A DNA stretch of 5,574 nt from a bacterium (GTDB lineage Bacteria > Coprothermobacterota > Coprothermobacteria > Coprothermobacterales > JAADFF01), in NCBI GenBank assembly GCA_027063755.1, contig JAMORD010000132.1:1-5574 (forward strand), in the 5' to 3' direction. The position numbers and the translations under genes are program-made. Each line of letters opens with the position of its first letter. Position 1 is the first letter of the stretch. This document shows, piece after piece, positions 393 to 5,574 of this stretch. Below the pieces are notes generated by a model, which saw only the letters and a program-made list of their open reading frames with translations, was not told the origin of the DNA and did no database searches.

Positions 393-426
393 GAGAAAAG
401 CCCCCGCATGTGTGGGGGCTTTTCTT
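393..426. terminator. Bidirectional intrinsic terminator
   Basis: A long perfect hairpin pairs GAAAAGCCCCC (395-405) with GGGGGCTTTTC (414-424). Two more pairs (one G-T) can close the stem over an ATGT loop. It starts a few bases after the flavin reductase stop codon. Read on the plus strand, the stem is followed by TT and its own 3' arm is T-rich. Read on the minus strand, the stem is followed by a TCTTTT tract. It therefore suits both convergent genes. Confidence 0.9.
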
Positions 427-441
427 ACCAGTATAGTTATA

Positions 442-1485
442 TTATGGTTTGCGAATACGCGCGAGTAGTTTCATGATTTCAATCTTGGCTTTTCTGAACT
501 TTTCAAATAGATTGTGCTCCTTGAGATAAGACATGAGTTTACCATTATCTACTATCCGTTTGGCTTCATCAAGGGATATATCTGCAACTTTGCCAAGTAT
601 AACAACCGTCGTGGCATATCCTATATTCTTTTCTTCAATAAGGCCTAGAATCTCATCTTTGTCAAATCCAGACCAGCGGGCAAGTACATCTGCTATCTTC
701 TCTTCTAAATTTTCTTTGATGTTCTTGGCCTCTTGTTTGAGAAACTGCATAACTTCCTGTCTCGCTGTCTGGAATGTTTCTGTGAGTTCATTTTCTTCAA
801 GATATTTTCTGAGGTTTCCAGATACAACGATGCTTGCCGATGTCTGAAGGTCTATATTTCCTACCTTGGCAAGGACAACGGCGTTAATAGTGCGGGCTGG
901 ATTGAGACGGAAGTCTCTTTGTACGCTCACTATAGTTTCTGTGGGAATACCCGACCAGCCTGCAAGGACATTTACAAAATCCTTCCATACTCTGCCCTTG
1001 ATGCCAGGTATTTTCTTCTGTTTTCCTTGCTTGTATAAATCTCTCATGAATTGTTTTAGCGATTTAAGTGCTCCCATGAATTTTTCTTGCAAATTATTCT
1101 GCTCCACATATTCTTTGAGTTTGCCTTCGGCGACAATCTTTGCAGCTTCCTCAAGAGATATATCTCCGGCCTTGGCAAGTACAACGGCATTGATAAGCTG
1201 AGAAAACCTCATCTTATATTCTCTTTGTACGGCTACTATGTCACTTACAGAGAAACCAGACCATCGTGATAGAATGCCTAACAGTTGTTCTGGAGATGGT
1301 TTGCGACCTTTATCGCCTCCTCCTCTACGCATAGGTACCTGGACTGGTGCTTGGCTTACACTACTAACTGTTTGTGAATTGTCAGATGATGCATAAACGG
1401 TGTCTGGTGCAGAAAACACCATAGGACTGATAAAGATTGCCAGGGCCACGAGCCCCGCCAGTAATGCCATTCCAATCTTCTTCAT
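442..1485 (-). CDS. Secreted protein with three WSG helical repeats, function unknown
   Basis: I do not recognise a named family. The ATG at 1485 is chosen because AAGGAGG lies 8 bases upstream and the product then begins with a classic signal peptide: MKKIG, a hydrophobic core at about residues 7-26, and probable cleavage after A32 (VYA) or A26. The reading frame extends further upstream but has no such support. After a Ser/Gln/Pro-rich linker and a basic glycine-rich patch (residues 53-63, RRGGGDKGRKP), the 347-residue protein has three diverged repeats at about residues 69-150, 171-252 and 265-343. Each opens with L-x-x-WSG-[FI] and carries VxLxK, [DN]I[SD]L, IVxxG[KN]L and Y[VL]xExxL positions. 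The repeats look fully alpha-helical and are joined by Lys/Glu-rich linkers. There are no catalytic motifs, no cysteines, no lipobox and no anchor, so it is probably exported and soluble or wall-associated. It is transcribed divergently from the DUF47-PiT operon. A role in binding a surface component or a partner protein is only a guess. Confidence 0.85.
   Translation of the reverse strand: MKKIGMALLAGLVALAIFISPMVFSAPDTVYASSDNSQTVSSVSQAPVQVPMRRGGGDKGRKPSPEQLLGILSRWSGFSVSDIVAVQREYKMRFSQLINAVVLAKAGDISLEEAAKIVAEGKLKEYVEQNNLQEKFMGALKSLKQFMRDLYKQGKQKKIPGIKGRVWKDFVNVLAGWSGIPTETIVSVQRDFRLNPARTINAVVLAKVGNIDLQTSASIVVSGNLRKYLEENELTETFQTARQEVMQFLKQEAKNIKENLEEKIADVLARWSGFDKDEILGLIEEKNIGYATTVVILGKVADISLDEAKRIVDNGKLMSYLKEHNLFEKFRKAKIEIMKLLARIRKP
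457..1281 (-). repeat. Three-copy protein repeat (about 80 residues each)
   Basis: Copy 1 is encoded at 1036-1281, copy 2 at 730-975 and copy 3 at 457-693. The WSG tryptophans are residues 75, 177 and 271. Copies 1 and 2 share INAVVLAK at the same distance from the Trp (30 residues to the Lys). Copy 3 is two residues shorter there and reads TTVVILGK. The copies differ in most positions, so this is an old duplication and not a recent DNA-level repeat. Within each copy, the part after VxLxK (ISLEEAAKIVAEGKL in copy 1) resembles the part before it (VSDIVAVQREY), which hints at a two-half origin. Confidence 0.85.
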
Positions 1486-1524: not shown

Positions 1525-1556
1525 TATATACGCAGGCATGAGACACTTTGTGACAC
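1525..1556 (-). promoter_or_regulatory. Candidate promoter with Pho-box-like direct repeat for the repeat protein
   Basis: On the minus strand GTGTCAC (1556-1550) is repeated as GTGTCTC (1546-1540) after an AAA spacer. Nine bases later comes TATATA (1530-1525), a plausible -10 about 25 bases before the ribosome binding site. No good TTGACA-type -35 is present; the repeat sits where one would be. This arrangement resembles the enterobacterial Pho box (two CTGTCAT-like repeats replacing the -35), but the period here is 10 and not 11. The repeat is directly seen. The regulatory role and the link to PhoB/PhoP are inferred. Confidence 0.35.
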
Positions 1557-1585
1557 TTCTGTGAAAGGTGTTTCTATATAGCATT

Positions 1586-1639: not shown

Positions 1640-2284
1640 ATGATTGGAGGTATATCTACAGTTGTAAAGCGTATTATGGACCATATGTCACTTGTTGAAA
1701 AGACCCTTGAGGCTTTCAATGAAGTGCTTAAGCAGTATCTGAAAGAGGATATGGACATTAATGAACTATCGGGACTGATGAAACTTGTACATGATCTTGA
1801 GGGACAGGCTGACGACATGCAGGAAGAGGCCACTGAGTCTATTATGCATTCAAGACTTCTTCCTGAAACGAAAGTGGAGCTCATGAGACTGGTTGATAGG
1901 GTTGACGGTGTAGCCAATAAGGCGGAGTCTATTGTAGACCATGTATTTCTATTTGCCCATCTAAAGTTTCCTGAAGATATGAGGGGTCAGCTTGCCCAGA
2001 TAATGGATATAACAGTAAAGCAGATGAAGGCTGCTAAAGAGATGGTCAAGTTCCTGTTTGAAGATTTTAAAAAGGCCAAGGCCAAGGCCGAAGAGGTTGA
2101 TGAATTTGAGTCTGAAGTTGATGGATTGGAAAGGGCCCTGATAGCCGAGCTGAGAAAGTGGGATGTATCTATTGCAGAGAAATATGTATATCTCAACTTT
2201 ATTGAGAAGCTTGCCGATATTTCCGATGCCATAGAAGATGTGGCCTCTGTGGTAGAGCAGATTATAGCTATAAGACAGATCTAA
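1640..2284 (+). CDS. DUF47/PhoU-like phosphate transport accessory protein
   Basis: This is a 214-residue, almost entirely helical cytoplasmic protein of the DUF47 (TIGR00153, PhoU_div) family, which is relatively close to PhoU and typically encoded next to PiT phosphate permeases. Its length matches the family. PhoU-type acidic metal-binding patterns of the form [ED]xxxD recur in the two three-helix halves: around E54-D58 (DLEGQADD), D86-D89 (DRVDG), E157-D161 (ESEVD) and D196-D200 (DAIED). The N-terminus (ISTVVKRIMDHMSLVEKTLE) and the C-terminal LADISDAIEDVASVVEQI are typical. The stop codon lies 14 bases before the PiT start, so the two genes are almost surely cotranscribed, as with ykaA-pit in Bacillus subtilis. 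By analogy it modulates the transporter or phosphate homeostasis; the mechanism is not settled for the family. The family call is firm and the precise role is inferred. Confidence 0.92.
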   Translation: MIGGISTVVKRIMDHMSLVEKTLEAFNEVLKQYLKEDMDINELSGLMKLVHDLEGQADDMQEEATESIMHSRLLPETKVELMRLVDRVDGVANKAESIVDHVFLFAHLKFPEDMRGQLAQIMDITVKQMKAAKEMVKFLFEDFKKAKAKAEEVDEFESEVDGLERALIAELRKWDVSIAEKYVYLNFIEKLADISDAIEDVASVVEQIIAIRQI

Positions 2285-2298
2285 AGGGGGGAGCTGAC

Positions 2299-3258
2299 AT
2301 GAAGTTCCCCATATGGTTAAAATCGTATGGTCCTCTATCTTCAGGTCTTTATCTCGGTTGGGCTCTTGGTACCAATGATGCTGCCAATGTCTTTGGCACG
2401 GCTGTTGCCACGAGGGTTATACCATTCTTGTGGGCTGGTGTATCTATTCTTATATTTGCAACAGTGGGTGCTGTGCTTGAGGGGTATGCCGGTTTTCAAA
2501 CGCTTGGTAAGTTTGGTGCCATGACGCCGTGGCAGGCATTTTGGATAGCACTTTCTGCTGCTCTGACTGTGACCCTCATGACTTATTGGGGTTTGCCTGT
2601 ATCTACATCGCAGGCTATTGTTGGTGCTATCATTGGTGCCGGGGCTGTCAATGGCACACTGGATCTCTCTCCGCTGGGTAAGGTTGTTATTTCTTGGGTA
2701 TCTACACCCATTGGTGCTGGAATCATAGCATTTCTTTTGTACTTTATACTAAAACCGCTGATTCTGAAGTTCTCAAAAGGCCTCTTCGGTTGGGATAATT
2801 TCATTTTTTGGGGACTACTTATATCGGGTATATATGGTGCATATTCGCTTGGTGCCAATAATGTGGCTAATGTTATGGGAGTATTTGTCAATGCGGGAGC
2901 TGTTTCTCCCTTTATGGGGGCACTTCTGGGTGGACTTTCCATTGGTCTTGGAGCACTTACATATGGAAAAAAGGTTATGGAGACAGTAGGTGGGGGTATT
3001 GTTAGACTTTCACCGTATACGGCACTGGTTGTTGTGCTTGCTGAAGCCATTACAGTTCACTTCTTTGCCGTTGTTGGTGTACCTGTGTCTACCTCTCAGG
3101 CTGTTGTCGGTGGGGTTATTGGTGTCGGTTTTGTAGAAGGTGTTAATCGTATAGATAAGCAGACTGTAAAAAAGGTTCTTTTCGGGTGGATAGGTACTCC
3201 CACAATAGCGGGTATATTATCTGCAATTATCATGTTTTTGGTCAATCTTGCATCGTAG
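2299..3258 (+). CDS. pit: PiT-family inorganic phosphate permease, copy 1
   Basis: This is a cytoplasmic-membrane symporter that imports inorganic phosphate using a cation gradient (H+ or Na+; which one cannot be told). The 319-residue protein shows about ten hydrophobic segments and the two inverted PHO4 halves of the family. The first half has the GTNDAAN signature (residues 24-30) and GLPVSTSQ (98-105). The second has GANNVAN (185-191) and GVPVSTSQ (260-267). These are the loops expected to form the phosphate site. A short hydrophilic loop (about 152-168) separates the halves, making this the compact bacterial/archaeal form without the long central loop of some members. The second signature has Asn where many relatives have Asp. 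The ATG follows a GGGGGAG ribosome binding site, 14 bases after DUF47. A sulfate permease of the CysP branch is less likely because the GxND motif is intact. A terminator follows. Confidence 0.93.
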   Translation: MKFPIWLKSYGPLSSGLYLGWALGTNDAANVFGTAVATRVIPFLWAGVSILIFATVGAVLEGYAGFQTLGKFGAMTPWQAFWIALSAALTVTLMTYWGLPVSTSQAIVGAIIGAGAVNGTLDLSPLGKVVISWVSTPIGAGIIAFLLYFILKPLILKFSKGLFGWDNFIFWGLLISGIYGAYSLGANNVANVMGVFVNAGAVSPFMGALLGGLSIGLGALTYGKKVMETVGGGIVRLSPYTALVVVLAEAITVHFFAVVGVPVSTSQAVVGGVIGVGFVEGVNRIDKQTVKKVLFGWIGTPTIAGILSAIIMFLVNLAS

Positions 3259-3277
3259 ATCTCGTTACAGGGACTGA

Positions 3278-3305
3278 GAGGGGAGGCATAGCCTCCCCTT
3301 TTTTT
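3278..3305 (+). terminator. Intrinsic terminator of the DUF47-PiT operon
   Basis: GGGGAGGC (3280-3287) pairs perfectly with GCCTCCCC (3291-3298) over an ATA loop, followed by seven T residues (3299-3305). It begins about 20 bases after the first PiT stop codon, so the second PiT copy is probably not just a read-through product of the first operon. Confidence 0.92.
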
Positions 3306-3306
3306 G

Positions 3307-3315
3307 TGGTATAAT
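3307..3315 (+). promoter_or_regulatory. Extended -10 promoter for the second PiT gene
   Basis: TGGTATAAT is a perfect TATAAT with an upstream TGn, lying one base after the T-tract of the preceding terminator. The -35 position (about 3286-3292) falls inside the terminator hairpin and has no TTGACA match, which an extended -10 can tolerate. Transcription would start near 3322, giving a leader of only about 20-25 bases. Confidence 0.75.
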
Positions 3316-3328
3316 ACCCTTCACGCTT

Positions 3329-3337
3329 AAAGGAGGT
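3329..3337 (+). promoter_or_regulatory. Ribosome binding site fixing the second PiT start
   Basis: AAAGGAGGT ends 7 bases before the ATG at 3345. The in-frame GTG at 3339 is only one base from this site, too close to be used, so the protein begins MWWTV. Confidence 0.85.
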
Positions 3338-3344
3338 AGTGCCC

Positions 3345-4301
3345 ATGTGGTGGACCGTATCTTCTGGTGCCTTTTTAGGCTGGACACTGGGTTTTAATGA
3401 TAGTGCCAATGTTGTTGGCACTGCTGTTGCCGTGCGTATCATACGCACGACACTGGCTGGTATTATTATGTTTGTCTTTGCCACACTGGGTGCTACTCTC
3501 TTGGGACATTATGGTTTTACCACACTGGGTAATTTGGGAGACCAAACGCCTCTTACCGCTTTTTCTATAGCGCTTGCTGCGGCTATAGCCGTGAGGTGGA
3601 TCAATCGCTATGGTATACCTGTTTCTACATCACAAGCCGTTGTAGGAGCCATAGTGGGTATGGGAATAGCTATGGGACATGTTAACCTTTCCCCACTTAC
3701 GAAGATATTTCTGGCGTGGATATTTACCCCTATCGGTGGGGCACTATTTGCCTATATCCTGTTTTTTGTGCTAAGGCCCATAACAAGACCTTTTCGTAAA
3801 TCTATATTCTCATGGGATAACATGATATGGTGGGGTATGGTTATTGTTGCATCTTATGGGGCTTTTTCTCTTGGTGCCAACAATGTTGCCAATGTAACAG
3901 GTGTGTTTGTCAAGGCGGGGGTTTTAACACCATTCTGGGGGGCGTTTATCGGTGGCCTCTTTATAGGTCTTGGTGGTCTTAGTGTTGCCATATTTAGGGG
4001 AGCATCGGGTAAGCTTTTTAACACTGTGGGAGGCGGTATTGTTAAACTTGACAGCTATACAGCGCTTGTGGCTGTTCTTGCGGAATCTATTACGCTTCTT
4101 ATCTTTGCCCGTATAGGTGTGCCCGTGTCTGCCACTCAGGCTCTGGTGGGTGCTGTTATTGGTGTGGGACTTGCAGAGGCACCGCATAGAATTAACCTTG
4201 GGGTGCTTCGCAATGTCATTACATCGTGGTTTACATCCCCACTATTTGCCGGTGTGCTATCATTCCTTATGGGAATGACTATAAAAGTTATGGGGTGGTA
4301 A
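3345..4301 (+). CDS. pit: PiT-family inorganic phosphate permease, copy 2
   Basis: A second PiT symporter of 318 residues, clearly paralogous to the upstream copy along its whole length. It shares the LGW-x-LG-x-ND opening, the VGTAVAVRI helix, the W-x-TPIG segment and the SWDN-x-I-x-WG mid-region. Its motifs are GFNDSAN (residues 16-22), GIPVSTSQ (90-97), GANNVAN (177-183) and GVPVSATQ (258-265). The last has Ala in place of the Thr of copy 1 and Thr in place of the second Ser. As in copy 1, the second signature carries Asn and not Asp. It lacks the ten or so extra N-terminal residues of copy 1 and has no DUF47 gene of its own; it has its own promoter and a small downstream partner gene. The copies are well diverged, so the duplication is old or one copy was acquired. 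Different affinity or coupling ion is possible but not shown. Phosphate is the most likely substrate; another oxyanion cannot be excluded. Confidence 0.92.
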   Translation: MWWTVSSGAFLGWTLGFNDSANVVGTAVAVRIIRTTLAGIIMFVFATLGATLLGHYGFTTLGNLGDQTPLTAFSIALAAAIAVRWINRYGIPVSTSQAVVGAIVGMGIAMGHVNLSPLTKIFLAWIFTPIGGALFAYILFFVLRPITRPFRKSIFSWDNMIWWGMVIVASYGAFSLGANNVANVTGVFVKAGVLTPFWGAFIGGLFIGLGGLSVAIFRGASGKLFNTVGGGIVKLDSYTALVAVLAESITLLIFARIGVPVSATQALVGAVIGVGLAEAPHRINLGVLRNVITSWFTSPLFAGVLSFLMGMTIKVMGW

Positions 4302-4302
4302 C

Positions 4303-4581
4303 ATGGAATTGACGCTAAAACAGATGCTGCAATGCTTGGAGCATGCAATATGCTATCTTGCCAAAGATGAAGATATTCAATGGCTTTTGCCTCGCATAGA
4401 GAGGGTGCTAAATTACCTGTCAGACCTTCCCAAGGGTGATGATAGAGACTTTGTTGAGGGTATAAGGGCCTTTTTTGTCAACTATAGAGATATGTATAGA
4501 CAGGTTGGGGTAAGGAAAAAAGATGCTGCTCGGAATTGGGTACAGATTATCAGGCAGTATCGCCATCATATGGGGGAGTAG
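4303..4581 (+). CDS. Small helical protein of unknown function downstream of PiT copy 2
   Basis: I do not recognise this 92-residue protein. It begins with ATG one base after the second PiT stop codon (TAACATG). GGGGTGG inside the end of the PiT gene is the only upstream ribosome binding signal, so translation is probably coupled to the permease. The sequence looks all-helical and cytoplasmic, with no signal peptide or membrane segment. An N-terminal helix (MELTLKQMLQCLEHAICYLA) is followed by acidic and mixed-charge helices, and the basic C-terminus is RNWVQIIRQYRHHMGE. It has two Cys (residues 11 and 17) that do not form a metal motif. Its position suggests a partner of the permease, occupying the slot that DUF47 fills for copy 1, but it shows no PhoU-type acidic motifs. 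Codon use matches its neighbours, and the absence of stops over 92 codons with a coupled start makes it a likely real gene. Its 3' end overlaps the HD-GYP gene by 32 bases. Confidence 0.75.
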   Translation: MELTLKQMLQCLEHAICYLAKDEDIQWLLPRIERVLNYLSDLPKGDDRDFVEGIRAFFVNYRDMYRQVGVRKKDAARNWVQIIRQYRHHMGE

Positions 4582-5574
4582 CCTGTAAAGCCTCTTTTAC
4601 AACTTTGACAACTTTCGGGTCGTAGTATATGCCGGCATATTCCTCAAGGTGAGATATAGCTTCTTTGTGGGTATACTGAGTTCCATATACCTTAGGTAGT
4701 GTCATGGCTGTGTATGTATCAAGCACTCTCAATATACGGGCTAGCAGTGGTATTTCCTCTTCTACAAGTCCGTGGGGATATCCGCTACCATCGTAGTTCT
4801 CGTGATGATACAACACTGCCGTGCCTACTTCTGTGGGTATTTCAGGAAAATCTTCAATAAACTGCTGGCTATATACGGTATGTGTTTTAACAATATCCCA
4901 CTCTTCAGACGATAGAGGAGATCTTTTTAGTAATATGTCTGGTGAAATATAGAGTTTCCCTACATCGTGGAATACAACGGCAAGTCGAAGATCAATGCCA
5001 CTGATGGGAAATTTATCTTCTATTTGGCGAGATATATTTAGCATGGTCCGCATCTGCCCTTTGGGTTCTATGCCTAATTCTTCCATGGTTGTAGGTAATA
5101 TCATGCTTAATCGTTTGATGATCTGGATGTGTATCTCTATGTCGTCAAGATAGTCTTTGACAATATTCATATTGCGAAATATGGCTAATATAGCCTTCTT
5201 TTCTATGTGAGATAGCTCTTGTTTGTGAATGACGACGATATCTATGCCAGACTCTCGTAATTTGCTGGCAAACATATCCTTGTCTAAAGGAATAATGTAC
5301 TTTTTCTGGAGGCGATATATTACATCTTTAATGTCTATATTTTTTGCCTCCTTGAGCGTGATGATATTTTTATTGGTTATGCCATATAGGCCTTCTATAT
5401 TGCTAAAGTTTTGGAATATGCTTTTAAGAGATTCCCACACTGATATGTTTTCTTGACTTGTCTCAGTAAGTACCGTGGAGAATGTAGATATAGCAGATTT
5501 GATAAAAGAAAGCTGACGGGTAGATGTGTCTTTCAGTGTTCTGTGAGTGATAATCATTCTCAATATACTTAATA
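4550..5574 (-). CDS. HD-GYP domain protein, probable cyclic-di-GMP phosphodiesterase, 5' end uncertain
   Basis: HD-GYP enzymes hydrolyse cyclic di-GMP (some act on related cyclic dinucleotides) at a di- or tri-metal site. Numbering from an in-frame TTG at 5563, the C-terminal domain (about 160-330) shows FHDVGK (H199, D200, K203), THT (H228), HHENYDGSGYP (H253, H254, GYP 261-263), the IPLLARILRVLD segment (D282) and YDPKVV (314-319). So most metal ligands and the GYP signature are intact. The usual upstream His, about 32 residues before the HD, is not seen; that region reads EELGIEPKGQ. The N-terminal 150 residues match no domain I can name. Their end (HKQELSHIEKKAILAIF) vaguely recalls the last helix of a GAF domain. 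Neither the TTG at 5563 nor the ATG at 5557 has a ribosome binding site, unlike most other genes here, and the frame stays open to the window edge, so the gene probably begins outside. It overlaps the 92-residue gene tail to tail. Confidence 0.87.
   Translation of the reverse strand, partial: LSILRMIITHRTLKDTSTRQLSFIKSAISTFSTVLTETSQENISVWESLKSIFQNFSNIEGLYGITNKNIITLKEAKNIDIKDVIYRLQKKYIIPLDKDMFASKLRESGIDIVVIHKQELSHIEKKAILAIFRNMNIVKDYLDDIEIHIQIIKRLSMILPTTMEELGIEPKGQMRTMLNISRQIEDKFPISGIDLRLAVVFHDVGKLYISPDILLKRSPLSSEEWDIVKTHTVYSQQFIEDFPEIPTEVGTAVLYHHENYDGSGYPHGLVEEEIPLLARILRVLDTYTAMTLPKVYGTQYTHKEAISHLEEYAGIYYDPKVVKVVKEALQATPPYDGDTA

Follow-up and report, generated by a model that had tools for sequence, protein, structure and literature searches.

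An exported protein with three diverged helical repeats in Coprothermobacterota and its probable distant relatives

Gene content of the locus

The window, that is, the whole stretch of DNA analysed here, is an entire contig of 5,574 bases from a draft genome of the order Coprothermobacterales (1.5 Mb in 251 contigs, 87.9% complete). On its minus strand, an ATG at 1485 opens a frame of 347 codons (445–1485), which is preceded by the ribosome-binding site AAGGAGGG (1493–1500) and closed by a stop codon at 442–444 (Table 1). This frame is a real gene. Its orthologue in a second species of the genus (G001/JAADFF010000066.1), which is 67% identical over the full length and has the same neighbours as in the window, is the only close relative found. 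A strong hairpin separates it from the convergent gene for a flavin reductase and probably acts as a bidirectional terminator.

On the other side, a PhoU_div (DUF47) gene and a tandem pair of PHO4/PiT-family paralogues (1640–4301) run divergently from the three-repeat gene. Since both paralogues also match CysP, the sulfate permease model of NCBIfam, far under its cut-off, phosphate is a presumptive substrate. The second PiT gene is directly followed by a 92-residue open reading frame (4303–4581, plus strand) that has no Pfam match and overlaps the end of a convergent gene by about 30 bases. The latter (4550–5572, minus strand), which runs off the contig end, encodes an HD-GYP-like HD_5/HD domain protein, the N-terminal half of which has no Pfam match. 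A search of the window against Rfam gave no hit.

Conservation between the two sister species reaches 91% in the divergent promoter region, which contains the direct repeat AAGTGTC-ACA-AAGTGTC, whose sole exact occurrence in each of the two genus genomes is in this region. The repeat is a possible candidate operator, for which no regulon rose above control in either genus genome.

Table 1. Positions of the features described in the text; window coordinates unless a genome or locus is given.
Feature	Position	Strand	Basis
Gene for the exported three-repeat protein	442..1485	(-)	Open frame, 347 aa + stop, RBS, orthologue
Signal peptide, residues 1–32	1390..1485	(-)	Sequence reading; 25/32 residues kept in orthologue
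Disordered linker with Gly/basic stretch, residues 33–62	1300..1389	(-)	pLDDT <50 at residues 1–62
Repeat copy 1, residues 65–149, W75	1039..1293	(-)	Repeat alignment, model
Basic linker between copies 1 and 2, residues 152–166 (KQGKQKKIPGIKGRV)	988..1032	(-)	Low pLDDT at 152–164
Repeat copy 2, residues 167–251, W177	733..987	(-)	Repeat alignment, model; best-conserved copy
Repeat copy 3, residues 261–345, W271	451..705	(-)	Repeat alignment, model
Hairpin before convergent flavin reductase gene (putative terminator)	394..425	(-)	MFE -22.4 kcal/mol, z -6.05
Direct repeat AAGTGTC-ACA-AAGTGTC (candidate operator)	1542..1558	(-)	Divergent promoter region; identical in sister species
PhoU_div (DUF47) protein, divergent from three-repeat gene	1640..2284	(+)	PF01865, E 1.4e-25
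PHO4/PiT-family transporter 1	2299..3258	(+)	PF01384, E 7.7e-57
PHO4/PiT-family transporter 2	3345..4301	(+)	PF01384, E 1.1e-50
Two-copy exported protein	G002 C1:169718-170659
Two-copy exported protein	G004 C1:44663-45634
Two-copy exported protein	G003 C1:284632-285537
Single-copy exported proteins, GYGxGEI...GxGWGxIAxxLG	L025-L031, L038, L040-L043, L047-L051, L053-L067

Three diverged copies of one unit

The N-terminus has the features of a signal peptide, namely an MKK n-region, a hydrophobic core and a VYA↓SS site without cysteine; the protein is thus predicted, as the sequence-only reading had proposed, to be exported, with cleavage at this site. The mature protein is basic (pI 9.6) and free of cysteine. 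It contains three diverged copies of a unit of about 85 residues, which we designate the WSG unit; the copies themselves are near neutral in charge and the linkers are basic. Pairwise alignments of the copies span 74–83 columns (identities 34, 30 and 29), and the Smith–Waterman scores between them (183, 146 and 124) are so far above the shuffle maxima (47, 62 and 46; z 34, 22 and 24) that chance is excluded as the source of their likeness. The tryptophans of the three WSG triplets are at W75, W177 and W271, where the earlier reading had placed them. The triplet is invariant among the three copies here but is not a family signature, as copy 2 of the orthologue has WAG. The VxLxK, [DN]I[SD]L and IVxxG[KN]L motifs named in that reading are present in all three copies, and for its last motif the more accurate form is Y[VL][EK][EQ]xxL. 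Copy 3 is two residues shorter in helix 3. We noticed no motif in the protein that would point to catalysis or anchoring.

Comparison with the orthologue revealed that (i) conservation is highest in copy 2 (75%), whose helix 3 (PARTINAVVLAKV) is identical; (ii) the linker between copies 1 and 2 has 10 of 13 residues identical; (iii) the gene has a dN of 0.22 and a dS of 1.83, compared with a dN of 0.02–0.04 for the PhoU_div and PiT genes; and (iv) the copies pair 1-1, 2-2 and 3-3 across the two species, and the triplication therefore predates the species split. The copy tree gives strong support to two of these pairings and leaves the first open. The protein is fast-evolving yet constrained; fast evolution is usual among exported proteins.

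Predicted fold and family searches

In the full-length AlphaFold2 model (pLDDT 74, pTM 0.44), each copy has the same six helices, and the mutual placement of the three copies is uncertain. Copy 3 with its flanks, modelled alone from an alignment of the six copies, reached a pLDDT of 94.0 and a pTM of 0.85, and the predicted fold of a single copy is confident. Helical repeats without a named family had been proposed from the sequence, together with the expectation that the copies fold alike, and both proposals agree with the models and with the searches below. That the unit exists as described here is very probable.

Fold searches, including Foldseek, revealed no convincing solved or viral fold for the copy and nothing above a common helical arrangement. 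No family reached its curated cut-off in Pfam or NCBIfam for the whole protein, or in Pfam for the six repeat copies, and Pfam listed no HTH family for either. A sequence search of the PDB with the protein and two profiles gave nothing at E <0.001; a strong match to a characterised domain, which would have spoken against a new family, was thus not found. Relatives were absent from the viral contigs, plasmids and phages searched, and the literature yielded nothing useful.

Several matches were set aside. With the full sequence as query, the PDB gave Legionella LotA and Hsp104 (E 0.03–0.6); these matches were rejected, as were the Pfam LA-virus coat and NCBIfam VirB4 matches, which are far under cut-off. 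Open reading frames of about 830–880 residues that matched the WSG profile in many genomes were taken for ClpB-type proteins matched by chance, because the beginning of the repeat is similar to their VLARWTGIP segment. Further WSG-profile matches were read as a helicase (L009), a membrane-fusion protein (L015) and an ABC protein (L018), and the matches to a YebC-like protein (L045) and DnaA (L107) were judged to be due to chance.

Two-copy exported proteins elsewhere in the order

Proteins of about 302–314 residues with two copies of the unit are encoded in three other genomes of the order, with one gene found per genome. The hhalign comparison between the WSG and two-copy profiles gave a probability of 74% over 81 columns that span all six helices (score 31.3 versus a shuffle maximum of 16.1). 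The G002 and G004 proteins were found with a joint profile; with an HMM of the WSG copies alone, the G004 and G002 proteins rank first and second among the open reading frames of the fetched regions, a small set (1.3e-7 and 0.0014). The profile that combines WSG and two-copy sequences (A9), from which G003 is absent, matched the G003 protein at 4.0e-12. The two-copy proteins did not appear in the whole-genome scan run with only the WSG profile; a combined profile was needed. There was no match in G005 and G006, which have the lowest completeness among the order's genomes. Together, these results show the same unit in exported proteins elsewhere in the order, there in two copies.

In G002, G003 and G004, the two-copy gene directly follows a phosphomannomutase-family gene, whereas the gene in the window is divergent from PhoU_div-PiT. 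The phosphate-operon neighbourhood, which the earlier reading had offered as context, therefore holds in both sister species and is not conserved in the three others, although gene order is no strict criterion for family membership. This bears on the idea that the protein is an accessory of phosphate uptake, which would capture either phosphate or some phosphorylated polymer close to the PiT transporters and be co-controlled with the PhoU_div-PiT operon. The divergent arrangement in both sister species and the conserved intergenic region with its direct repeat agree with such a role; given the position of the related genes after phosphomannomutase, the direct repeat without a regulon and the lack of a match to any phosphate-binding family, we consider it quite improbable.

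Single-copy exported proteins and half-repeats

The sequence-only reading had noted a faint resemblance to exported proteins with repeated GxGxGxI units. A consensus composed to represent these units served as the first query of a genome search followed by profile extension; since the consensus was picked for its resemblance, the evidence from single-copy proteins is not blind. The search brought in exported proteins with GYGxGEI...GxGWGxIA motifs from several lineages. The six WSG copies matched the profile of these proteins with probabilities of 87–92% and scores of 33.7–38.2, compared with peaks of 17.5–29 for column and block shuffles and 12–16 for reversed profiles, and the aligned stretch covers helices 1–4 nearly without gaps. 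The two-copy profile matched it at 92% and the combined profile at 94%; with shallow alignments, these hhalign probabilities are approximate, and the controls are shuffles rather than a large library of natural profiles. The initial impression is thus supported by profile–profile comparison, at 74–94% probability and well above shuffled controls.

The WSG HMM ranked single-copy proteins 1, 2, 3, 5, 6, 8, 9, 11 and 14 among 250 open reading frames of their own loci (Mann–Whitney p 1e-7), and their summed score exceeded composition-matched shuffles (z 4.2). Copies 2 and 3 taken alone matched the single-copy family weakly (8–13%). In alignment A8, the GxGWGxIA hairpin motif is absent from all three WSG copies; the three-repeat protein would thus be a diverged relative of the single-copy proteins rather than a strict member.

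As judged from the profiles, the exported proteins with a single copy in several other phyla are probably distantly related to the three-repeat protein by common descent. The competing explanation is that the likeness to the GYGWGEI proteins arose by convergence of amphipathic hairpins and that the repeat is restricted to the order. Weak WSG HMM scores on single proteins (8.6 bits at best), the deceptive scores that helical families can attain and the selection of the first query by resemblance speak for convergence, but the scores of 34–42 against shuffle maxima of 14–29 and a natural HTH control of 22.6, and the two-copy proteins that bridge the WSG and single-copy proteins, make it hardly probable.

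Within the single-copy domain, a two-fold repeat is clear (93%, score 28.0 versus a null maximum of 13.4). In the WSG copies, ILSRWSGFSVSDIVAVQREYKM and VLAKAGDISLEEAAKIVAEGKL align in the same register at chance level (13.7 versus a null maximum of 14.9). The suggestion that each copy consists of two half-repeats is thus clear for the single-copy relatives and plausible for the WSG copies.

Many single-copy relatives end in basic Gly- or Gln-rich tails, and one adjoins a FecR-domain protein. At three loci (L026 758–1585, minus strand; L064 418–1242, plus strand; L067 587–1387, plus strand), the relatives adjoin a conserved exported protein of the GFYPGIGSDVSFT...LGYTPS type, which has no convincing Pfam match and is possibly a beta-barrel.

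The hairpins also raise the question of nucleic-acid binding, in which an HTH-derived unit would bind DNA outside the cell and keep it at the surface. Points in favour are marginal matches of some single-copy relatives to HTH_38 (2.8e-5, under cut-off; 24.2 of 27 bits in one relative) and HTH_68 (2.6e-5), an in-register alignment of the WSG profile to DnaA domain IV, the repeated appearance of DnaA C-terminal structures in the weak Foldseek matches, and the basic linkers. Against this, the score with DnaA domain IV (22.6) is at the level of the block-shuffled control (maximum 22.8), and the near-neutral repeats are without the GxGWGxIA hairpin motif. We regard a nucleic-acid binder as unlikely.

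Proposed function and significance

The best explanation, to which we give about even chances, is an exported, non-enzymatic protein associated with the cell envelope. Each six-helix module probably comprises two helical hairpins and a C-terminal helix pair, and the modules would be joined by a long helix between copies 2 and 3 and by a flexible basic linker between copies 1 and 2. Given this layout, the protein would most likely act multivalently, binding or scaffolding a polymer or protein of the cell surface, itself a tentative assignment, and one, two or three copies with basic linkers would suit multivalent binding. Retention in the envelope and ligand binding are both presumed. Omp85/BamA was not found in any of seven genomes of the order (G000–G006), and the control was detected in 7 of 14 reference genomes, including Thermotoga; a classical outer membrane is therefore doubtful and a periplasm may not exist. 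The protein may be bound to the wall or, as no anchoring motif was noticed, released into the medium.

All-helical, cysteine-free exported modules can also serve as inhibitors, chaperones or adaptors. Such a role towards other exported proteins is contradicted by nothing in the analysis, but no protease, secretion or folding gene is linked to the three-repeat gene in the window, and we consider it rather unlikely, with an envelope-associated binder or scaffold still preferred.

On a broader view, the proteins possibly belong to an uncatalogued multi-phylum superfamily of exported alpha-hairpin domains, perhaps HTH-derived, which in this order would have grown from one to two to three copies as a surface module binding nucleic acid or wall polymer. 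An apparent orphan of a sparsely sampled phylum is tied to an exported domain family that is unnamed in the Pfam and NCBIfam searches. This family can now be defined with the help of a profile, the confident fold prediction and the two-copy proteins as a bridge, and it offers a tractable case of repeat growth across lineages (one, two and three copies). The three-repeat protein alone settles no long-standing question.

Comparison with related and known helical-repeat systems

The two-copy proteins share with the three-repeat protein the signal peptide and, as judged from the alignment, the six-helix unit with its C-terminal helix pair. They differ in having two units rather than three, in the lack of WSG and in the low identity between units (12–22%). 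The single-copy proteins share the signal peptide and hairpin units that align to helices 1–4, and differ in mostly having one unit, glycine-rich hairpin motifs and a low-complexity tail.

Repeated alpha-hairpins are also found in TAL-effector repeats and in the designed left-handed alpha/alpha toroids (PDB 4yxz, 5byo and 4yxy), which gave the best rows of the fold search. For both, Z is 6 or less, which the notes of the fold-search tool class as a common arrangement, and there is no sequence relation to the WSG unit. HTH_38 (PF13936) and DnaA domain IV show a helical hairpin pattern in register with that of the WSG unit; they are cytoplasmic DNA-binding domains, and their match to the unit is not above controls.
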